64,000 bases of DNA from Apostichopus japonicus. Taxonomy: Eukaryota; Echinodermata; Holothuroidea; Aspidochirotida; Stichopodidae. Every line of letters begins with the position of its first letter. The stretch's first letter is position 1. The notes beneath the pieces are model-generated. The model saw only the letters and a program-made list of their open reading frames with translations, searched no databases and had not been told where the DNA came from. The translations under genes were made by a program, and so were the position numbers. Where the stretch lies: positions 17,051,303 to 17,115,302 of the forward strand of contig NC_092581.1 in the NCBI RefSeq assembly GCF_037975245.1, in the 5' to 3' direction. Below are positions 1,415 to 60,600 of the stretch, piece by piece.

Positions 1415-3893
1415 GACCACTGCATGCTTGCCACCAACTGGTGGATCCTTGGCCATTCAAGAAAGCCTGCATGAAGGACGTCTGCCTGACCCTTCCAAGC
1501 CAAGAGTTGGTGTGTCACATGATCGCTGAATACGTCGACAGGTGTCTAGAGGCCGGAGGAGAACCAGGCACATGGAGAACAGAATTCTTTTGTCGTAAGT
1601 TAACAATACATTACTCTGTCGTATCACATTAACGTTTCCTACTAATCTTTGATTAACTGTTACAACCATTCGACTGTCAATCTGCTATCTTTTCTAACAC
1701 ATGTCGATACTATCACATGATTGCTGAATATGTTGACAGGTGTCTAGAGGCTGGAGGAGGGCCAGTGCATGGAGAACAGAATTCTTCTGTCGTAAGTTAA
1801 CGCTTCTAGGTTCTGCCACATTCACATTTCCTTTACTGTTACAACCATTTAACCTGTTAATGTGCTGATCTCTTCTCACAGCAATGCAGTGTCCGCTGGG
1901 ACAGAGGTACACTATGTGTATGTCTGGTTGTGAGGATTCGTGTGGCAACCTAAATGCAAAGGCTTCCTGTCCTAACAGGTGCTATGAAGGTTGTGAATGT
2001 ACAGATCCAGATCACGTCAAGGAAGGAGATCAGTGTATCCATCGCAAATCCTGCGGCTGCTCAGAGAGTGGAATGTACTATCCGGTGAGTTGGAATAAAT
2101 CCCGGTTCAACTTTTTTAACCAATTATTATTTGAAAGAACAATTATATACAAAATTTTGTGTTTCAAAATAAATCCAAGAGAGATCGTTTACAATCGTAA
2201 GGATTCTTGTTTACTGATTTTTGAAGTGTTCTTCATTTTTGCCAGGTGGAATATGCATTTGCCAGGGATGGTTGCACCGGTCATTGTGAATGTCTGCCCG
2301 GTGGAGAGTTATGTTGCATGCCTCTAGCTTGTGGGCAGAATGCCCAATGTCAGATCAGGGACGGTGAGAGCAGCTGTTACTGCGATCCAGGCTATGGTGG
2401 TAATGGACTCATCTGTCAAAGTAAGCATTAACAATTTATAGTCTACAAACAGACGACCAGCTAATTCACAGTTCCAAACAGACCACAATCTAGTTGTATT
2501 CTTATTGTTAAACTGGACCCTAGCCTCACAGTCCAGTACTGCACCATTTCAAATTGGCCTGTATCCATCTCATATAGGTACTGCACCATCCCAAACCTAC
2601 TCGCTCCCCCCCCCACCCCCCGCCCACCTCCTCGTACTGCACCAATCCAAACCTATGACATTCTTATTGAACAATCCCAAACCTCTAACATCGATACTGT
2701 ATCCCTCCAAACTGCCCCTCCCCCCCCCCCACTGGTTTTAATATTGCCAAACTGACCCATTCTCCATACATAAGGTCTGTGCTCATATGACTCCCCTCTT
2801 TTTTTCAGCCATCGAACATCCACTGCACGCATTGGTATCTGCTGGTCAAACCGTCTATATGGACTGCGGTGACCTCTACATTCAGGTCCAGAGTGCTGTG
2901 TTTGGAGGTCTACAGAGCACCGGTGTGTGCACTGCCCTCCAATACCCAGACCAGGAATGCCCCGAAAGTGTCGATGCCGAAAATCAACTGCTGCCATTAT
3001 GCGAAGGAAAACATTACTGTTCTGTAAGTGTTAATTCTGTTGATATATGTAACACTGCCCGCGCCTGTGAGTGTTCATGGTTGAAATATTGTCATGTGGG
3101 GTTGTCTTGTGGGGTTGTCTTGTGGGGTTGTCATGTGGGGTCGTCTTTATCTGGAGTCATACAAATTTGGCCATCAGTAGCTCCTTAAAAGTTAGATGTA
3201 TCATCCTCTAATAAATTCAGGTGAGTGGGGAGACACTAGTGTTCATCATTAGTGTCTCCATCCTGTATAATACACATGTCGTCTACCAATTACATTTCTA
3301 GCGGCATGTTTTAAAATTGATGTTATATTTAGCAGTAGCCATCTCTTTATGATTAACTTATGAAGTGTGTTAGTATAGCACCAACATTACCTCCCTTCCT
3401 CTGATTGATGTCCATTGGCTTCCTGAAGTGTCAGTCATTTTACTGTCAAACAAACGTACTGAATATATTTCTGTTACAGGTTCCCGCCATTCCACGACGT
3501 TTCGGAGACATCTGCATCCACAAGTACAAATACCTGCAAGTCCAATTCGCATGCCAGTGGCGTCCTGCAGAACGTGAAATATACGGTGACATCACCGTGA
3601 CGACCTGCCAGAATGAATACTTGGAGCTGAATTGCAGACACCAATTTGTGGATATCCTGTCGTCCAACTTCGGTCGAACAGCAGGTGCCGAAGTCTGTCC
3701 ACACACCAAGGTCAGGGACCAGGACTGCCGAGCTGTTAAAGCACCAATGTTGATCAAGCTTAAGTGCCAGGGTAAACACCAATGTGAGATGAAAGCTAAC
3801 GTTGAGGAGTTTGGAGGAGAGGATCCATGTCCCAAGACCTTTAAGTACTTGGAAGTAAGGTACCGGTGCACTCAAACTCCCGTCCTGCATTAA
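1415..3893 (+). CDS. Secreted C8-TIL-EGF-SUEL lectin multidomain protein, 3' part of gene
   Basis: Five exons join in compatible phase: 1415-1594, 1882-2084, 2246-2420, 2809-3023 and 3480-3893 (stop TAA 3891-3893). All introns are GT-AG. Exon 1 encodes a C8 domain (CHQLVDPWPFKKAC, then FC at its end), the module that follows VWD domains in zonadhesin, FCGBP and SCO-spondin-type proteins. Exon 2 is a cysteine-rich TIL domain (CPLGQRYTMCMSGC, ending SCGCSESGMYYP). Exon 3 carries a short Cys-rich segment and an EGF-like motif (CGQNAQC...CYCDPGYGGNGLIC). Exons 4 and 5 encode two SUEL/galactose-binding lectin domains; the first is split by an intron, and the second ends with DPCPKTFKYLEVRYRC. The product is probably extracellular, binding carbohydrate through the SUEL domains. 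The start codon, signal peptide and VWD domains must lie upstream of the window. No membrane segment follows the last lectin domain. AATAAA motifs follow near 3995 and 4183. The exact family name is uncertain. Confidence 0.85.
1704..1797 (+). pseudogene. Decayed tandem copy of the 3' half of the C8 exon
   Basis: This intronic stretch repeats about 90 bases of the C8 exon (bases 1512-1604), including the HMIAEYVDRCLEAGG codons and the GTAAGTTAA donor. It has lost one base after the GGAGGAGG stretch, so the frame shifts and the WRTEFFC end is destroyed. The following intron sequence (GTTACAACCATT near 1658 and again near 1839) is also duplicated. No acceptor or first half of the exon is present, so it is probably spliced out with the intron. 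Confidence 0.75.
3091..3142 (+). repeat. 13-bp minisatellite, 4 units
   Basis: Four consecutive units of GTCWTGTGGGGTY in the intron that splits the first SUEL domain. Confidence 0.85.
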
Positions 3894-31589: not shown

Positions 31590-34500
31590 CTACAACTTAC
31601 TGGAGTCTGCGATACTGTAAGCTTGGAGATCTGTGGAGTAATACTGCGGGTGAGTGTGTATTCCGTTGTACCCTTGAGAATTCCAGGTATCTGTCACGGA
31701 CGGTTTTGGAAGCTCCATTTGACCCGGTATTGCAGGTAAGATAGTGGGTCTAACCGTCGGTTGAATCAGGAGAGAGCTATATCTCGGGTTGAATGCACTC
31801 CCCGAGGCATAGCCGTAACTGAGTTCATGAATGCCGTAACTAGATTTGTGATGTGCGAAAGCGCTTTGGTGGTGCGCAGCGAACGTGTAGTGCCAAGGAT
31901 CGTTATGTAAACCAGACACCCTCTGCCGATAAGCGGAATACGACTCCGCCGCAAAGAGAGAGTCAGAGGTCCTGTACGGTGTTATGGTGTTGTTGGCGTT
32001 TTGGTAGTAACAACTCCCGTTGCTGCTGTTGAGGTAGTGCAAGTTAGTACCGTCTATGGGCACAAGTGAGGTCGCTCTTAGTTCCTGCCAATAGTTACTG
32101 TTCCAGAATGACGGCGGAAAATTTCGGCGGCACATCAACGTTGACGTGGAATTATCTGATGTAATAAAAATATATTAAAAAATACAGATAATGAAGCAAA
32201 GGAATTGGACACAATGTCAAGTGATGTTAGGGCAGGGGTAAGGGGGGGGATAACACGAAACGATCATTGAAATGAAAGTTAACGGCGCATTACGAGCCCG
32301 ACATGGTGAACCATGAATAACAGTCACCGCGAGAATTCATGCGTCCTAAACATTATAGATCAGGCGGCGTTTTTCTTTACCAACATGTGATGTCATGTGA
32401 CTTTTGTGATTAGTTTCAGAACGTTTTGCTGGGGAGAACAATGACCTAAACCGCCTCCGTGTGTTCTCCCGACTGGGGTTAAGTGTATATCAAGTTTAAA
32501 GGTAATAAGTCATCTCGTCGTTAATGACGTCATGATGTCTGCACGTCGTCAGACTTCCACACGGTATATGTTGTTTATACGTCAGCGAAGTAAACGTTCT
32601 CTCATCACATACGAACTAGAATTGTACAAGTGTGGCCTATGTGTTCAAATATATGAAAATGCACTACTACATCCGTGATGTGGATTAAATTAGATCTCTA
32701 ACTGAATGAGACTGACGCGACAGTTCAGAGACGGTTGAGACCATACTTTGAGCAAATCGGGTGGAGCTATACTATTAAAGCGACACTTGATATAAAGCTG
32801 TACGGCCTGACCATGATGTCCATCGGTTCAGCAAGAATGTTCACAACTTGCCCCAACTCAACCTCCATTATGAAGGGTCATCGTTCATTTATATTTCTTT
32901 AATCGTGTTAACGTTATTCTTCACTTTCAATACAGTGTCATGTGGTTTAATAACAATATGTTGGAGATCTGTTTAATGACCACTGATATGAACGAGATCA
33001 CAAGACAATGAAACGAAAACACTCTACAGGGATCATATTTTATTTGAGTCAACACTTATTGACTGACTGCATGACCTCATTAAATCTGTTATCTCTTAAC
33101 CAACTATATAATCCTTGCGTTTTGATTGCTCAAGTCCGGTTCATTGGTTTGTGCTGAGATGTCGTCATAGCCCTGATGGACTGGCTAAGAATGCTTTTAC
33201 AGCCGATACATAGGAGACATTGCAGAAAATAACACATCACTCTACTCTCTCCTTCTCCTCCTCTTCCTCCTCCAAATAATGAACCTCTCCTCCGGTTGCC
33301 TTAACAAAGCAAAAACAAAACAAAATTCTGACCGGAAGGAGACATCAGGGTTTAATGGTTATTGCCGGTAAGAATGACGTAGTCTGAAACTAACCAAAAG
33401 AGTCTGATGCTGTTTTTTTTTTTTTTTTTTTTTCTATCTCTTTTTCTCGGATATTCGTTTGGCTTCGGTAATTATTTTTATTTGGTAGAGATGGCATTTG
33501 TAATACTAGATGAGAATTTTGATCGTACGTTAGTTTATACGTTTTTTGTACACTAATTTCATTAACATCAGAGGAGGGGAAGTCAGTGGCGGAGCTAGGG
33601 GTATTGGCCAGGGGGTGGGGCGAGAATGGTCTGTAGGGGCGCTTTCGACACTATCTAAGCGGAGCGCCACCACTGGTTGGCGCGTAGCGTACAGGCAATT
33701 TTTGAGTAAAGATACTCCCTAGATCTCCGGAAATGACCCTTTCCGGGCCGCGAATATTTTTTTCCCAAACTGAACTGACACTGAAATTATTTCCTCGATT
33801 CTGATTGGCTGATCAAAACCGGAATGGTAGTCGGCGTTTATGAATGAATGTATGTGACACTGTTAGTGTTGATCATACCAATCCTCATGGGCCGCATCAT
33901 GTCAAAAATACGTGTGTACGCCATATACAGGCTAAGTTAAAGTATGTAGGCCTAAGTGTGCCTACATGTAGATACAATGTGAGGCTTCCAGTTATCAAGA
34001 GCTACTGCAAGGGCGGTAGTATGGAAAGCCGTTTTAACATTTAATAAGGAATTTCAGATATCTCGAAATAATTTCAGATATCTCAAATTAAATTACAGAT
34101 ATCTCCAATTTATTTAAGATATCTACAAATAATTGCAGATATCTTAAAATCAATTTCAGATATCTCGAAATACCAGGGAATTTCAGATATCTGAAATTGA
34201 ATTCGAGATATCTCGAATTCAATTTCAGATATCTCGAATTCAATTTCGGATATCTCGAATTCAATTTCAGATATCTGAAATAGAATTTTGGATATCTCGA
34301 ATTCAATTTCAGATATCTCGAATTCAATTTCAGATATCTGAAATAAAATTTCAGATATCTCGAATTCATTTTCAGATATCTCGAATTCAATTTCAGATAT
34401 CTCGAATTCAATTTCAGATATCTGAAATAGAATTTTAGATATCTCGAATTCAATTTCAGATATCTCGAATTCAATTACAGATATCTGAAATTTCCCGATT

Positions 34501-37500
34501 AAATGTTAAAATGGCTTTCCATACGTGCCATTTTAACATTTAATCGGAAATTTATGCATATGCATTTCAGATATCTCGAATTCAATTGCAGATATCTCGA
34601 ATTCAATTTCAGATATCTCGAATTCGAATTGCAGATATCTTGAATTCAATTTCAGATATCTCGAATTCAATTTCAGATATCTCGAATTAAATTTAAGATA
34701 TCTGAAATAGAATTTCAGATATCTCGAATTCAATTTCGGATATCTCGAATTCAATTTCAGATATCTCGAATTGAATTTCAGATATCTGAATTAGAATTTC
34801 AGATATCTCGAAATCTATTTTAGATATCTCGAATTCAATTTCAGATATCTCGAATTCAATTTCAGATATCTCGAATTCAATTTCAGATATCTGAATTAGA
34901 ATTTCAGATATCTCGAAATCTATTTAAGATATCTCGAATTCAATTTCAGATATCTGAAATAAGAAACAATTTCAGATATCTAAAATTCCCGATTAAATGT
35001 TAAAATGGCTTTCCATACGGTAGGGCCTATATTAGTGAATTTGAGATCTCGTACGAACTAGTACGAATACGTATATACGGTTAATGCAGGCCTACTATGT
35101 CACCATGTATAAGAACTTCTAATTGTGCAGGTAAACATATGTGGTTACGTACGTATAGGTTATAATGCTATATACAACTAGTTAACAAGTCAAAAGACAC
35201 AGACATATCGTCAAATGCCATGTTTGTGTACACTCACTGGCTGACACACACTCGCTCGCGCGTCTTCATGGCCACTACATATTCGAATAGGCCTATCATG
35301 ATTCATTGACTGAATACATTTTGAATTTATGATTATAAAACTAAAAGTATCGCAACCAAACACCACGGTACATATGTACATCGGCTACATGTATACAATT
35401 ACAAATGCACTGTGTGTTATAGTGTTGTATACTATACACAGTACAATAGGCTACATTACATGTATGTGTTGCGTAGAGCGGAGTCAAGCGAGTAAACAAA
35501 CGAACGAGGACTGCCTATAATGGGCGCAGTAGTTGGGAATAGTTGCTTCACTCTATACTTTCGTTCAAATATACCTACTAAAAGTTCTGGAAAGTTGCTA
35601 ATGTTAATATCTTGAATTTGATTGTGTTGATCATACTGATATCGACAGATTATGGAGGATCCATGTTGAAAACTAAAGTATATCACGTGCTCGCTGATAA
35701 CCAATCAGAATCGAGGAAATAATTTCAGTGTCAGTTCAGTTTGGGAAAAAAATATTCGCTTCCGGGCCTGGCTAATTTGCAGATAAACGAAGAATAAATA
35801 GGTGTCATCGCCAAATTACACCAACAAAATGTGACAAATGTCAATAAGTAGATGAGAGCGCAATAAAAAAGACAATAATCTAGAATAAGTATAAAGTGGT
35901 AAAGAGCTGAAAAGGGCGACAGCAGCCCATTTTACTCCGTCAGCCCATTTTACTGACTGTATGGACGCTCCGCCACTGGGGGAAGTCCCTTGCCTCCTAG
36001 TATAAGACATATATTATCAATTATCAATGATCAAAGGTCCTAATCAAGAAAAGCACATTGTATTACAATGTATCCATACACATGTAATCAGAAAACTCCA
36101 CGTGCATCTTACAATATAGTTAAAGCTTCGATTTAACAGTCCGACCCCTGTAACTCTCGAAGCAGGTGTAATTAAAAAAAGCCGTATGGGATAGCTGGTT
36201 GTAGGTCTGTGAAACACACTGTCTTGATGTAATAATAAACCATAGCAAAGCTTACCTTCAAAAACCTCTTGAATGTACATGATACAAACTGGACAAAACA
36301 CCTGGTCACGAATTGTCGACGGCTTATTTATAGCGTTTGCAACTCACCGTGAGAAGGGAATCGGAACTACGCACGCGTCAATCATAAATCATGGAACGCC
36401 AAAGATGACATAGAACAATGTGCCAAGCTAAATAAATGGGGCACAATACATTCATGGAATATAGGATCGAAAAGGGTGAACAACTCGAGAGGTCGTTTAC
36501 AACAGGCTGAAAAAAAACGATGGGGCTTTGAAATGGGGGACAGTTGGAGAAATTGCATATTTGAGCCATGAAAACATGAGGGCGCCAGTTAGTGCCCAGC
36601 TTGATGAAATGTGAGTTATTGGGATATAATTACTTGGCTACCCAAAGGTTACACGCTATTACCGGACCAATCTTCTCAAGCTTATTAATTACCGATGTCG
36701 TGTGTATCTTTGAACTTTGTTGTTATAAGCAGTTACGCCAAAACACATCAAACAAAGTATAACTCATGAGAGGAAGAACAAGGCTTAGTAAATCCATAAA
36801 ACGAAACGTATCAAAGGGGGGGGGGGGGGAGGGACGTTAACAATAGTTTCGGCTGGTTAGCCGTAGATGAGGAATTGCGTTATTTGTATGAAGACAGGTA
36901 ACAGAGGGGTGAATAAAATTGGTGAACCGACTCATCGAAATGCAAATTAATCATAGCCTTAATCAAGGACCTAACTCCAGTACTGCCTGCATTCATGAAC
37001 CTTATGCAACATGAACGTGATACAACATGAACTTGATACAACATGAAGTTGATTCCATCTATTAATTGAGCTTATTTTGAATCCCTTCTATCATATTTAT
37101 CGAAATAATTATTTACAAACAATGTCTATAGTTGGGTTGCGTTGCTCTGTATCAAACTCAACGATGTCCCGGTTATTACAGCACCGGGTGAAACCCTAAC
37201 AACACGTTTTCCCATAATATGTGCTCTGTTTCACGGCCAAACTCCAAACCGGCAAATCACGCGCCAACGGTTAACGGTTGAGCTACAAAGTTGCAGCACA
37301 AACGGCAGCAGGGATCATGTAGAGTTGTGGGTGGAGTTCCTTTAACAACTACAGGGAAAGCAATGAAATCCCCGATATCCATGCTATATCTAGTAGATGA
37401 CATTGTAGAAGTTAAGGCTCGCATGAATGAATTATGCTGAGTCTATAACTTTCTCTGCATACACTCACTATGCCAGCACCGTTGTATGAGCCACAATAGA

Positions 37501-40500: not shown

Positions 40501-43500
40501 TACCGACAGTATCGATTTATACCCAGCCGTTTATGAGCTGTCATCGGTAGTCTTGATTCTTGTTAGAAGACAATTCCATGCATACCCCTTTAGATTCAGT
40601 GGGCCCATGTAGCATGCTGTTCTAAGCACGCTAACCTTTGGAAGAACGAGATTCTGTCACTTCTAAGAACCGTAAACAATGGATGAGACTTCATGTACCC
40701 AGTCACTACACGTAACACGATAATTAGAACTACGTAATTATTTGACTCAATTAAGGATATTTAATTATTTATATTCTAATGTTTATTTACTAATTGTGTA
40801 ATGTCAGAGTACTATATCGAGAAAAAAAAAATGGGTTGCAAACATATGTAAATGTAATGTAAATAAATCACTTAATAATGCGCCATATATCCAGTGCCGA
40901 AGGCTTGTTCAAAAGCGCAGTCGAGAACTCAAAGATGAAAATATCAAGGAAACTGAAATGTCTTCAGCTGGGATTTGAAACATTTAAATGAGATGGCTTT
41001 CCTGAGGTTAAGTGGGATATTGTTCCACGATATAGAGGCAGTGATTACGAAAAACATTTGGAGTTAAATTATTGTTTGATCCATCTTTTTCATGGATGTT
41101 TTTTTGTTGTTATAGTTTTGAAGGGGAAAAATGAAATTGTAAATGGTATGTTATAGTATCCCTTAGATCATCACATACAAACGCGACCCTGAAGTAAGAC
41201 ATTGAAAGAATAATGCAAATCAAAATGGCGCTGAATTATATACGTTTCATCTCGGAACGGTATGTCATGCTAATAAATCGACTGTTTATTATAAGCTGTC
41301 GATAAACCAAGCGTTTGCTTTTCATCCACTCTCTTGTTTACGCGCTATTTGTTTTTGATTGTTACGTCTTTGGTAACATCACAAAACCAAACAAATGGAG
41401 AACCGTTATTATATTCGAAGGATATGATCATTTCCAATGAATTTATAAGTTAACTTATCACACTCTTTATTACGGGGGACGGGTGGGAGTGGTAGAGATG
41501 GGTCATGGAAGGATCGTAATCACATCACATTCAATGAATATCAAACCGGTAATATCGTCTAGTTTGAAAGTTAGTTTTGGTTATTGGAGATGAGTATATA
41601 TACAACAGTATGTAGCTTACCAGAGTCTTTCTGTACAATCTTGCTAGCTTCACTCGAATGTTCTAATAACTTGATACGCTTCCTATTCCAGTCGTCTGCT
41701 GTTCCCTTTTGTGTTTTTGTTGTGTGCTCGCCATGACATACACCATTGCGTGAGAAGCTAGATGGTTGATCCAGGGCTTTCTTAAAGTGTTCATCGACTA
41801 CCGTGTTCACGTCACCGGTATAGAAGGTAAATATGACACACCGAGCATTGACATATTCTGCTTCTGGCACCACTTCATCCACGCCGCCATTTTGTTCTGT
41901 TTCATCAACACCAGCTTTCACTGGCTCACTCCCAATGTTTGTTCTTGGCTGCAATTGCGTATATCTATTCGCTTCTAATTTAAAGAACTGATGTTCCTGT
42001 GACGTCAGAGCATGTGTTGACGCGTAATGGATACCTGTATTTGCTGCCCCCGATATGTGGTTCTGAGTCGAGACAGCAGGACTGTGGTATGGCTGCAGCG
42101 GTAATGTGTGCGCACCGACGAAATCTACTGGGCCAGCTACTGGGTAGGACTCCAGCAATGCATCTTGCATTTTGTAGTGCCCAAATCTCTGTAACGAGAA
42201 AGATAAATATTGTTACAGCGAACATTATTTATTTTTTACCAAAACGTCTCCCGGCAGAAGAGAATGTGAAGAGAGGACTGGGCGAAGGGGGATGGGAGAG
42301 TAATGGTAGGGCATGAGCATGGAGGGGATGTTTTGTAGATATATAGAGGTGAGAGCTCTTTCCCTTGTTTCATGCTCATCTCAAATACTCGTGAACAATG
42401 TAGGCAATGATAGTGAATTACACACACAGCATGAACGCTGCCCTCTTCCCCTCCCTCGTATACTACCCAACACAGTCCTACTTTAAACATCTGAAGAAAA
42501 TACTGAACAAAGGGAAGAAAGGCCTATGTTGATGCTATAAAGCTTCCAGGAATCTGTACTCTGTACCAACCAATAGTTCTGGAACAAAGACGTAATGAGA
42601 TGACACGAAAGGCTTGAGGTGGCCCCCTCCATGCCTCCCGACGCTCGCATACCAAGTGAAGAAATATGAAGATAAAACGTTCGATTTGGGGGGCTAGATG
42701 GGGAAAGTAAGAGATTCATTGCATAGTATAAGTATAATATATGGGAGCGGGGTGCGGGGGGAAAATGACTGGCATAACAACATTTTAATTATGCGTGCAC
42801 TTTAACGCGTGTACATGTCGTTCTGGTAATTAACGCGTAATAATGGACCGTTCAAAGGTAAAACGTGGCAAAATATAAGCATATTTAATCCTTTCAAGAT
42901 GATATTAATCATTGAGGATGCGGACTGGTTCCACATTTCAAACATCTCGTGGGTATATTGGTTCAATTCCTTTGAGTTTACGCCGCATCTGCTTACATTA
43001 TGATCGGCCTTATACTATTTGATTTTACATCAGCGGAGACAAGACTATACACATCATTAATTGCGTAACAGCTTAACGTTTATCAACGGTAATAGTAATA
43101 CATCTCTTACACGATCCACTAAGATATATCATAATTATAAATAATTATATCTTATTCACTGATAGCTTGACATGAGTTAATGGAAGTGAAAGGCCTTTGT
43201 CTGAAAATAAAGTATGTATGTAATACGTTTGGTCATTTATCGAGCTAAACATTCCTGTTTCCAATACGTTTGGTCACCGTCTCATATGAGGGACTGGGGC
43301 ATGAAGTCCGCGCCCCTTGGCATATGAACTAATGTGTTCCCCGCCTCTTACTTGCCAAAACTGTAAATATAGCTGTGCTTTTCCAATACTTTACTTTCAA
43401 CGATTATAGAGGTGCAGTACCGCATAGATGGTGCTGTCCGTATGAATTATAGCACCATAGCTAAAATCAAAACAAACCACATCTTCTGGTCGCCATTGAA

Positions 43501-54171: not shown

Positions 54172-54672
54172 TTGGTGTGTCCTTTGATGTTGGTGATGTC
54201 CATTCCATGTGTCCAGTCTTCCATAGGTGTGTCCTTTGTGTTTGTGATGTCCATTACATGTGTCCAGTCTTCCACTGGTGTGTCCTTTGCTGTTTGTGAT
54301 GTCCATTCCATGTGTCCAGTCTTCCACTGGTGTGTCCTTTGCTGTTGGCGATGTCCATTCCATGTGTCCAGTCTTCCATAGGTGTTTCCTTTGCTGTTTG
54401 TGATGTCCATGCCATGTGTCCAGTCTTCCATTGGTGTGTCCTTTGCTGTTGGTGATGTCCATTCCATGTGTCCAGTCTTCCACTGGTGTGTCCTTTGCTG
54501 TTGGCGATGTCCATTCCATGTGTCCAGTCTTCCATTGGTGTGTCCTTTGCTGTTAGTGATGTCCATTCCATGTGTCCAGTCTTCCATATGTGTGTCCTTT
54601 GCTGTTTGTGCTGTCCATTCCATGTGTCCAGTCTTCCATTGGTGTGTCCTTTGCTGTCCATTCCATGTGTCC
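54172..54672. repeat. 52-bp minisatellite, about 10 units
   Basis: The unit runs ATGTCCATTCCATGTGTCCA, then GTCTTCCANNGGTGTGTCC, then TTTGCTGTTNGTG. Because 52 is one more than a multiple of three, all three minus-strand frames read through the array with the same cyclic peptide (WTHGMDITNSKGHT...). Such overlapping frames are a repeat artefact. The last unit is shortened. Confidence 0.92.
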
Positions 54673-57633: not shown

Positions 57634-60600
57634 TTACCGCTCCATGGTCTTTATCGTCTCATCTTCCATCTGTTCTCTATTGACTCCCGCCTCTTCTGGT
57701 TTTTTATCCTCATTGACTCCTGCCTCTTCCGGTTTTACATCCTCATTGACTCCTGCCTCTTCCCGTTTCTTATCCTCATTGACTCCTGCCTCTTCCGGTT
57801 TTTTATCCTCATTCGTTCCAGTTTCTGTTCCGGCTCCCGCCTCTCCTCCACCTTTGCCATCCTTCTTATCTTCATCCGTTAGGAATTTCTCCCACTGGGC
57901 TAACCTCGCCTCTCTTTCTCTGTCCGTTTCCTCGATCTTGTAATCAGTCTTACCGTCCCAAAGCTCTGCGGTCAGCTGGCGTTTGGCAAACCATCTAAAA
58001 ATGATCAAAAATATTATCTCTGATCGAGAAAGTCTCACAAATTTTAGAATATGAACAAATAATGATAATAACAATATTTTTCGATTGGGTTTACTGATTG
58101 ATTGATTTTAAGATTTCAAATATTTACAATTGTTTTCTCTGTAGTGTTATGTTTTTCTTCTGATGAATTTTGAGCTTTAAGTAAGATATCTTGACGGCAA
58201 AGAGTATTTATTATTATGACTCTCACTCACAGATACAAAAAAGACAGCCAGTTTACAATACAGTCCTCATGTCCTTAAAAATGAAGCTTTAATTTAACAC
58301 CAGTTCTGAGGCTGTCCATCAATCCCTTACTACAAAATGTAGGAATGAAAAAGTAGGACTGATGTAGACAAGAGATACCATTTTCCATGCCTATTCTGCT
58401 TAAACATAATATGAAATCTAAACTGTGAAAATATACTTATATTTTTATGTCATGCAGCTCAATTGCTACAAACTTTCCTGATAGTATTGATGTTCATATT
58501 CACACAAGTTGATATGCACACTTCCACAGTCATGGACTATCTGTTGAAACCATGCAGAACAAAGCAAAAGCAAAACAGGATGAAAAAAGGGAATGTTTTG
58601 AAGAAAAAATTAGGCTCGCTGGACAGCCTGAAATTTTGTAACCCAACCCCCCCCCCCATGTCATTACGTAGGTTTGTTGTATAAATACTACTTGTGTACA
58701 TCGCTAGGCCAGTCATGTTTAGGTCATGTGACAAACGTGAGGCCGGCAGGACACATAATGTGACTGTCACACCTCAACTTGATCATAGCGTTTGAACAGA
58801 ATAACCCAGTTAAAACATCAGTTCTAGATGAACCAATTCTCTGAACAGATTTCACTAGGATTGTGGCAACGGGTAACAGAGTTGTCTGATTCTAAGTCCT
58901 ATAGCTATTAAATTATAATTCTGCTCAATACCTTCCATTCATGGCCGCTACACATTTGTCAGCATCATCTGCGTCTTTAAACCTCACAGAGGTGACTCCT
59001 TCAGGATGATTCTAGCAAACAAACAAGAATCTTTCATTAACATAAGGATAATACATATTCATGAGGTCACACCTTCAGGATGATTCTAGCAAACAAACAA
59101 GAATCCTTCATTAACATAAGGATGAAACATATTCATGAGGTCACACCTTCAGGATGATTCTAGCACACAAACAAGAATCCTTCATTAACATAAGGATGAA
59201 ACATATTCATGAGGTCACACCTTCAGGATGATTCTAGCAAACAAACAAGAATCCTTCATTAACATAAGGATAATACGGTCACACCTCAGGATGATTCTAG
59301 CAAACAGACAAGAATCCTTCATTAACATAAGGATAATACATATTCATGAGGTCACACCTCAGGATGATTCTAGCAAACAGACAAGAATCCTTCATTAACA
59401 TAAGGATAATACATATTCAAGAGGTCACATCTACTGGATGATTCTAGCAAATAAACAAGAATCCTTCATTAACATAAGGATAATACATATTCATGAATGG
59501 CTTTTTCAGGATGATTCTTGCAAATGAACAAAGATCAGTGGCGGCGGAACCGGGGGGGCTTGGGGGGGCTCAGCCCCCCCAATGAAAAAGTTGAGGGGGC
59601 AAATGCATGATAAGCCCCCCCAATATTTACCAAGGCTCCGAAACGTGCATCTGCCCATTTTTCAATGCATACTTGTCGATCTGTCCGATGCACACGTATA
59701 CTATATAGGTGTAATAATTTTAGTAATTGCTGGGGGACCCTGGTCCCTGGCCCGTCCCCTGGCTATAGACCACATTGTCACCCCAACCGCGTCTTCACGT
59801 CCCGTGAAAAGTGGAAGCAGTGAGTGTGAGTACCGGTAAGCGTAACACAACTTCGTCCTAGGCCAATGACTTGCCTCATTTCAGCCAGTTCTCCAACATC
59901 CCCTTACTTAGTGGCGGAGCGTCCATATATACAGTCAGGGGGCGGATCCACCCCCCCACCCCTCCTGATGGACTCAAATGGACTGCTGGCGCCCTTTTCA
60001 GCTTTTCACTACTTTTAACTTATTCGCGATTATTGACTATTTTATTGCGCTCTCATATACCTATTGACATTTGTCATATTCTGTTGGTGTATAATTTTCC
60101 GACAAAATGGCGACGACACCTATTTATTCTCCGTTTATCTGCAAATTAGCAAGGCCCGGAAAGGGTCATTTCCTGCAATCTAGGGAGTAACTTTACTCAA
60201 AAAAATTCTGTACGCTCCGCGCCAACCTGTTGTGGCGCTCCGCTTAGATAGTGTCGAAAGCGCCACTACAGACCATTCTTGCCCCCCCCCGACCAATACC
60301 CCTAGCTCCGCCACTGCCCTTACTACACTCAAAAACGTCTTTGCGAGTACACTACGAGTAATAGCTACTCTCTTAAATCACCATCGAATATACAAATTAC
60401 AATGTTTTTACAGACTTTTACGTGCAATCTGAGAAATTGCAGGCTTGAGAGCCATATTTTAGGGCTAGGTATTCGCAGCATAAAACACTCGGGAAGTGCC
60501 GTTTCCGGCCATCTGGGGGTTTGAAAAAACCCAAAATTTTATTGTACGCTCCGCGCCAACCGATGGTGGCGCTCCGCTTAGATAGTCTCCACACATTAGC

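Follow-up and report, generated by a model that had tools for sequence, protein, structure and literature searches.

A 21-bp minisatellite array forms the interior of a separate small, probably MITE-like element and of its dimers in Apostichopus japonicus

Results

The 21-bp array at positions 34050-34955 of the window (the whole stretch of 64,000 nucleotides that was analysed) is the interior of a separate small element with its own 6-bp target duplication, and not of the ~2-kb element to which the earlier note had assigned it. We put at about 0.87 the probability that this inner element is a non-autonomous, MITE-like DNA element of the cut-and-paste type whose interior consists wholly of 21-bp minisatellite. 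It is a non-coding dimer of two minisatellite modules and occupies 998 bp (34020-35017, forward strand) between two copies of CGGTAG (34014-34019 and 35018-35023).

The inverted ends are 26 bp long and have the form TATGGAAAGCC-N-TTTTAACATTTAAT. On the left, a G-type end (TATGGAAAGCCGTTTTAACATTTAAT, 34020-34045, forward) is followed by the module 1 array (34046-34497, forward), in which the units at the left edge are diverged and 20 to 21 bp long, and by a full internal end of A type (34498-34523, reverse strand). The dimer junction comes next (34524-34541, forward): it is made up of CGT and a truncated A-type end (GCCATTTTAACATTT...), the fourth end of the element, which starts at 34527 and lacks TATGGAAA. 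The module 2 array (34542-34991, forward) then leads to the right end, also of A type (34992-35017, reverse). Thus the array and the inverted TTTTAACATTTAAT / TGGAAAGCC brackets noticed earlier do exist, except that the left end of the second block is short of its outermost 8 bases. An open frame of 131 amino acids runs across the array, 21 bp being seven codons, and has no Pfam match.

The element sits at the centre of a three-level nesting. Its host is a ~2-kb MITE (33750-35759) with inverted ends GCGAATATTTTTTTCCC and a 9-bp duplication, TTCCGGGCC, and this middle element lies in turn within an outermost, hAT-like element (33584-35978) with ends CAGTGGCGGAGC / GCTCCGCCACTG and the 8-bp duplication GGGGAAGT on both sides. 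We call the outermost element hAT-like from its end motif and 8-bp duplication; the duplication was seen in the window only, the flanks at locus L022 being unmatched, and the right end was not found at L021. We fetched 11 other loci of the middle element, the next ranks after the window among 42 matches, with a query that stopped short of the insertion point. The 9-bp duplication is exact in 9 of 9 copies (both ends were found at 8 of the 11 loci). At all 11 loci the inner insertion is absent and a single CGGTAG is kept, from which we conclude that the inner element is a separate insertion and not part of the middle element's interior.

TRF gave 42.7 copies of the 21-bp unit with a score of 1010, and the exact 21-mer occurs 10 times forward and never in reverse. 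There are 41 GATATC cores (first, 34057; last, 34975), and we sorted the 40 linkers between them. Thirty-three have the normal 15 bases (the other 7, of different lengths, were left unclassed): 26 are forward, and 6 belong to a palindromic variant of the unit, 4 substitutions away from the main linker. The 1 linker that is truly reversed lies after the core at 34186 and before that at 34207 (34186-34212, forward). The repeated flips of direction that had been proposed for the window therefore come down to 1 of 33 normal linkers, and the palindrome mostly represents a variant form of the unit. The expected propensity to form hairpins was borne out, since the single-strand DNA folds at -255.2 kcal/mol, far beyond the -110.9 kcal/mol (sd 6.7) of 20 shuffles.

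These data bear on the idea that the array belongs natively to the ~2-kb transposon and changes its direction at palindromes. The array does lie between the inverted ends of that transposon, and palindromic units are frequent (five copies of TTTCAGATATCTGAAA in the window). Against this stand the 11 empty sites, the scarcity of reversed linkers and the many places among the sampled loci at which the array element occurs without the middle-element host; we regard the idea as almost certainly wrong.

The same ends were then counted throughout the genome. At no more than one mismatch there are 615, compared with 0 in a backward control, and the first 201 bp of the element are matched perfectly at 21 places, the window included. 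In 13 of 20 loci picked regardless of similarity, identity to the window over ~175 bp is 97% or more. Copies are thus present in hundreds and are near-identical, the main differences lying in whole 21-bp units and in module number, and the element has apparently been active recently, to judge from this similarity. The span between outer ends ranges from 336 to 1213 bp in 54 sampled loci (the two-element loci L019 and L020 were left out). The family hence has the features of a MITE: it is short, with terminal inverted repeats, a target duplication of fixed length, no coding capacity and many near-identical copies.

An exact 6-bp duplication flanks the element at 46 of 56 sampled loci, as against 1.1 of 56 expected from mispaired flanks (62 matches in 3080 pairs). 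Its consensus is CGNNCG, an unusual, CG-rich target: in the 46 exact cases, C stands at position 1 in 34 and at position 5 in 38, and G at position 2 in 42 and at position 6 in 35. No exact duplication was found at the remaining ten loci, L001, L002, L008, L010, L014, L048, L049, L067, L068 and L073. At L010, L014, L048 and L068 one apparent end sits at a dimer junction, and at L049 the duplication is off by one base.

Linkers classed over 54 loci comprise 978 forward, 240 palindromic-variant and 71 reversed ones (7 ambiguous linkers and 354 of other length, unclassed, were set aside). Inversions do happen within the family, and runs of at least two reversed linkers are found in 6 of the 54 loci (L001, L003, L004, L013, L073 and L074). 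Such runs, together with the long self-folding, the internal tandem repeats and the modular variation in size, would suit a foldback-type transposon in which the array makes up two inverted arms, and foldback elements with tandem repeats have been described (PMC4079207). Most of the array nevertheless points one way, the G end being its start and the A end its finish, as the 978 forward against 71 reversed linkers show, and the inverted part is confined to the outer ~26 to 35 bp. The duplication is 6 bp long, compared with the 8 to 10 bp given for the foldback element Tetris. We consider a foldback structure very improbable, and membership in the Foldback or Mutator-Rehavkus groups was rejected: their 8- to 11-bp duplications, as reported (PMC4079207, PMC6446971), differ from the 6 bp seen here, and an array that is mostly one-directional differs from repeats carried in long inverted arms.

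As the earlier note had suggested, the 21-mer was also sought outside the element. It has 1363 exact matches in the genome, and the 100 that were listed, in 16 clusters spread over C1 and part of C2, are each no farther than 1 kb from an element end. Six successive units with at most 3 mismatches were found at 18 overlapping places forming 8 stretches, and the longest near-perfect run is 189 bp, or nine units. No long satellite array of the unit was found in the assembly, nor long arrays outside transposons of the kind that define a classical satellite. Since long satellites get lost from assemblies, and withheld stretches read as N, the element might have captured a piece of an older satellite that is missing from this one. 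We think this improbable in view of the nine-unit maximum and of the proximity of all 100 listed units (of 1363) to an end. The units at the array edges are diverged and the inner ones alike, as expected from growth of the array inside the element. The proposal that transposition disperses satellite DNA accordingly stands in part: a DNA transposon does spread a minisatellite, and no long array was found as a seeded product.

We then examined the two blocks of the window, which had been likened to two smaller fold-back units. They are one dimer with a recurring junction: the exact junction is found at 95 places in the genome (control 0), confirming that the block ends recur together, and it is held by 31 of the 56 sampled loci. 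In 18 of these 31, the dimer length is 977 bp or departs from it by a multiple of 21; in 13 the step fails.

At four places, two ends lie exactly 6 bp apart, with the spacers CGCGCG, CGGGCA, CGTACG and AGCCCG. Three copies of CGGGCA surround an inverted pair at L020, and three of AGCCCG a direct pair at L078; three identical duplications are seen in only these two of the four. At L077 the outer sequence is GGTACG and the inner one CGTACG, and at L076 no outer left end was found. The best explanation of the dimer is insertion of one element into the target duplication of another copy, followed by a small deletion. Alternatively, unequal exchange, gene conversion or template switching between copies could have produced the exact junction by recombination. 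Repeats and palindromes favour such events, modules at one locus have sequence types in common, and the direct tandem pair at L078 could also be made by unequal exchange. Moreover, the left end of module 2 is of A type, whereas a G type would be expected there in a plain tandem of G-to-A elements. Four end pairs exactly 6 bp apart with a target-like spacer, one of them (L020) inverted and with three identical duplications, are instead what insertion predicts, and we therefore hold an origin by exchange to be possible but the less favoured course.

A transposase-bearing relative was not found by searches with end patterns and the reading of 16 loci, which more diverged ends would escape. The pattern CGNNNNTATGGAAAGCCNV matched 9 places (control 2), all of which were fetched (L032 to L040). 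Four of them (L032, L034, L035 and L037) are diverged family copies, and at L033, L036, L038, L039 and L040 no opposite end with the same duplication was found. A scan for long frames detected a reverse transcriptase at L035, a SCAN domain at L038 and, at L040, weak matches to hAT-type transposases (DUF4371, Dimer_Tnp_hAT). The hAT frame of L040 lies inside a candidate, but neither an inverted partner end nor a CGTTGT duplication was found in the 5.4 kb, and we put its position down to chance proximity. The pattern ...AATNNH matched 22 places (control 0), whose sequences look like single-base variants of the family. With CGNNCGTATGGAAAH the count was at chance level (23 places versus 26 in the control), and the two fetched, L084 and L085, are a short degenerate relative. 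CGNNCGTATGGAAAGD occurs at 7 places versus 2 in the control. Of the five fetched, three are family copies (L079, L082 and L083) and one, L080, is unrelated, while the long frames of L081 were dismissed as a simple-repeat artefact; the other two places are no more than about 0.5 kb away from dimer junctions.

Target duplications are 8 bp in hAT, TA in Tc1/mariner, TTAA in piggyBac and 5 bp in Transib elements. The 6-bp CGNNCG duplication and the TATGG...CCATA ends of the inner element fit none of these groups. Duplications of 6 bp are found in Dada and hAT6-type elements.

Discussion

We propose that a transposase encoded elsewhere recognises the ends of the element, with the array units perhaps serving as extra binding sites. 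Insertion would remake the preferred CGNNCG target on both sides, so that a second copy could sometimes land in the duplication. One tandem pair may then have lost ~11 bp, comprising the outermost 8 bases of the second element and part of the spacer, by a deletion at a GC/GCC microhomology that removed one internal end. The dimer would thereafter have spread as a single unit, while array length shifted by slippage or unequal exchange. A more far-reaching proposal is that CGNNCG and TATGG...CCATA would be the footprint of an undescribed transposase group that prefers its own fresh duplication. The element would then ratchet itself into multimers, transposition itself would build satellite-like arrays, and the 21-bp unit would be an iterated transposase-binding site. 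In its entirety we offer this as speculation that is probably not correct.

The combination had been thought undescribed, but Tetris, Rehavkus, BrickBuilt and arrays carried by oyster Helentrons are precedents. The BrickBuilt MITE of Porphyromonas gingivalis (PMC4596501) likewise has small inverted ends and is non-coding and filled by an array of ~20-nt units (23 nt); it is bacterial, with 19 copies, and its abstract does not mention multimers with a common junction. Tetris of Drosophila virilis (PMC4079207) resembles our element in being non-autonomous, with internal tandem repeats, modular sizes and no known transposase. It differs in its 220-bp repeats, placed in long inverted arms, and its 8 to 10 bp duplications. 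Tetris has been proposed as a seed of satellite DNA, and its repeats were amplified into satellite arrays (PMC4079207), whereas the present array keeps mostly to one direction and long arrays were not found. Rehavkus and Mutator-related transposons also carry a minisatellite or satellite unit, but with a 9-bp duplication and a transposase gene (PMC6446971, PMC10218199), where we found 6 bp and no such gene.

Non-autonomous Helentrons of the Pacific oyster (PMC7492417) similarly disperse short satellite-like arrays on mobile elements; they are rolling-circle elements, unlike the inner element with its inverted ends and target duplication. SaTar elements of guayule and rice (PMC5907723) form non-nested multimers of small non-autonomous elements by targeting, as here, yet they are Mutator-like, target microsatellites and involve unrelated elements, whereas a single family here joins itself at its own CGNNCG duplication. 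In Galileo, of the P superfamily, tandem repeats also expand and contract between copies and have been proposed as secondary binding sites of the transposase (PMC3573991). Galileo differs in having 7-bp duplications, ~210-bp repeats in long inverted arms and a known transposase (PMC3573991). A literature search found no mention of the 21-bp unit or of a 6-bp CGNNCG duplication, which does not prove their absence from print. Transposons with internal minisatellites are already described; what is new is the CGNNCG signature together with traceable multimer growth.

The family presents a readable series of a mobile element building and spreading tandem-repeat DNA. It includes single modules, direct or inverted pairs of copies spaced by exactly one target duplication, a frozen dimer that multiplied, and unit-by-unit changes in length among otherwise nearly identical copies. 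With such a series, the proposed connection of transposons to satellites can be tested within a single genome. A transposase group that we could not place may be reached through the CGNNCG duplication. Should the mechanism prove ordinary, the family would still be a well-documented further case of minisatellite-bearing MITEs.

The array element is an insertion in the middle MITE

Three transposons are nested at 33584-35978, with duplications of 8, 9 and 6 bp from outer to inner. The outermost element (33584-35978), which we take to be hAT-like solely from its end motifs, is flanked on each side by the 8-bp GGGGAAGT, a duplication found in the window only (the flanks are mismatched at locus L022 and the right end was not located at L021). 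Both of these loci share the arrangement of hAT-like element and MITE, without the array element. The middle MITE (33750-35759) is flanked on each side by TTCCGGGCC. Inside it, the array element (34020-35017) has inverted ends TATGGAAAGCC-N-TTTTAACATTTAAT with CGGTAG on each side, and its 21-bp array (34050-34955) contains 41 GATATC cores. A 131-aa frame within the array (34113-34505, minus strand) has no Pfam match; it stays open because 21 bp make 7 codons, and is probably meaningless.

The earlier note had taken the array for the native interior of the roughly 2-kb middle element. The left part of that element, used as query, returned 42 matches, of which 11 loci were fetched (the 10 ranked directly below the window and L031); the query stopped at 34017, and the search itself does not distinguish filled from empty sites. 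All 11 loci showed joined flanks with a single CGGTAG. The array element is therefore an insertion, and the array is not native to its host. In 8 of the 11, the middle element could be traced to its two ends (the right end was not located in L021, L022 and L028), and there an exact 9-bp GC-rich duplication flanked 9 of 9 copies, one locus, L024, carrying two. These two copies (L024:1122-3159) lie head to head, with their own duplications GGCCCGGGC and GCCCGGGCG.

A family with a CGNNCG target duplication

The 26-bp end of the array element, which occurs in G-type and A-type variants, matched 615 genome sites at ≤1 mismatch (backward control, 0). Allowing for internal ends at 95 dimer junctions, (615-95)/2 gives very roughly 260 elements. 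We sampled 56 loci: the window, 20 picked by visible end pairs (mostly on contigs C1 to C5), 32 drawn from the best G-end matches and 3 picked for long unit runs; L019 and L020, with two elements apiece, were each counted once, by outer ends. An exact 6-bp duplication was present in 46 of the 56, against 62 matches in 3080 mispaired-flank controls, and its consensus in the sampled loci is CGNNCG. This duplication is unlike those described for hAT, Tc1/mariner, piggyBac, Transib and Mutator.

No transposase-bearing relative was found in genome searches with the end patterns and inspection of loci with matches. A frame at L040:2166-3614, close to a TATGGAAAGCC site that occurs there by chance, weakly matches hAT-type transposases, and a long simple-repeat tract (L081, 9-1818) is open in two frames of ~570 to 600 codons, which is a repeat artefact. 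Three array elements spaced ~5.3 kb apart (G000 C1:12112220, 12117512 and 12122778) look like a tandem duplication of surrounding DNA. Two near-identical places on C17 (L084 and L085, positions 56-150) carry a short degenerate relative (TATGGAAAACC...) with ~3 diverged units, which may be left over from an earlier form.

The 21-bp unit is dispersed and mostly of one orientation

The exact 21-mer matched 1363 genome sites (679 + 684; control, 0). The earlier note had considered that the unit might be common outside the element; the 100 listed of these 1363 matches fall in 16 clusters, all ≤1 kb from a listed end, which speaks against it. Runs of six units at ≤3 mismatches occurred at 18 overlapping positions, which make up 8 stretches of up to 189 bp. 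The unit thus looks like a minisatellite scattered through the genome; no long satellite array of it was seen, with assembly gaps as a caveat. The window holds other tandem arrays, at 54172-54657 (52-bp unit, 9.4 copies) and 58989-59531 (74-bp unit, 7.5 copies), as well as frames with a TIL domain (1869-2324, +), a SUEL lectin domain (3405-3890, +) and a Vestigial/Tondu motif (41574-42212, -), domains indicative of an animal genome.

Repeated flips in direction, as first proposed for the array, were not borne out in the window: its 33 linkers of normal length (15 bases between neighbouring cores) comprise 26 forward, 6 of a palindromic variant and 1 reversed. Across 54 loci (the sample minus L019 and L020) we classed 978 linkers as forward, 240 as the palindromic variant and 71 as reversed; 7 were ambiguous, and the 354 that deviated from normal length were left unclassed. 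Since the longest reversed run was one linker in 46 of the 54 (none in 2, at least two in 6), the single reversed unit beside the 27-bp spacer is ancestral to most copies. Longer inversions are occasional.

Dimer history and length change

The array element is a dimer, and its junction GGCTTTCCATACGTGCCATTTTAACATTTAAT (34524-34541) has 95 exact matches in the genome and is carried by 31 of the 56 loci sampled; the block ends thus recur together elsewhere, as the earlier note's view of two bracketed blocks expected. The junction would derive from element-CGTGC(C/G)-element, with ~11 bp lost at GC or GCC microhomology. This insertion-then-loss reading is favoured by 4 genome places where a spacer of exactly 6 bp, resembling the target, separates two ends, and by triple duplications: CGGGCA around an inverted pair of elements in L020 and AGCCCG around a direct pair in L078. 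L077 is less clean (GGTACG outer, CGTACG inner), and in L076 the left outer end was not found. Module 2 starts with an A-type end, not G-type, which counts against a simple insertion followed by deletion; some end exchange must therefore be added to the insertion reading. L009 consists of one module, of the module-2 type, and carries a G-type terminus.

The element's first 201 bp are perfectly matched at at least 21 places, window included (40 of 522 candidates scored). Thirteen of 20 position-chosen loci are ≥97% identical to the window over ~175 bp; L001, L006, L007, L009, L011, L019 and L020 fall below, the last two opening with the other end type, so that their identity is not like for like. 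Compared with the reference dimer L050, 19 of 28 others carry 6 to 25 substitutions and 9 carry 39 to 137. In 18 of 31 dimers, the length was 977 bp or departed from it by a multiple of 21. Array edge units are diverged and inner units alike, as expected from unequal exchange within the element.

Relation to known elements

Satellites linked to MITEs have been listed in review (PMC6947457). BrickBuilt is a minisatellite inside a MITE (PMC4596501), Tetris a foldback element that seeds a satellite (PMC4079207), and Rehavkus carries a minisatellite (PMC6446971, PMC10218199); tandem repeats of Galileo may serve as secondary transposase-binding sites and give rise to changes in length (PMC3573991), SaTar forms non-nested multimers by targeting (PMC5907723), and cod inversion breakpoints have tandem MITE insertions (PMC12368964). 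The kind of element is therefore already known. What this family adds of its own is the CGNNCG duplication signature and a traceable dimer history; the array element belongs to an ordinary class, and its history is unusually legible.
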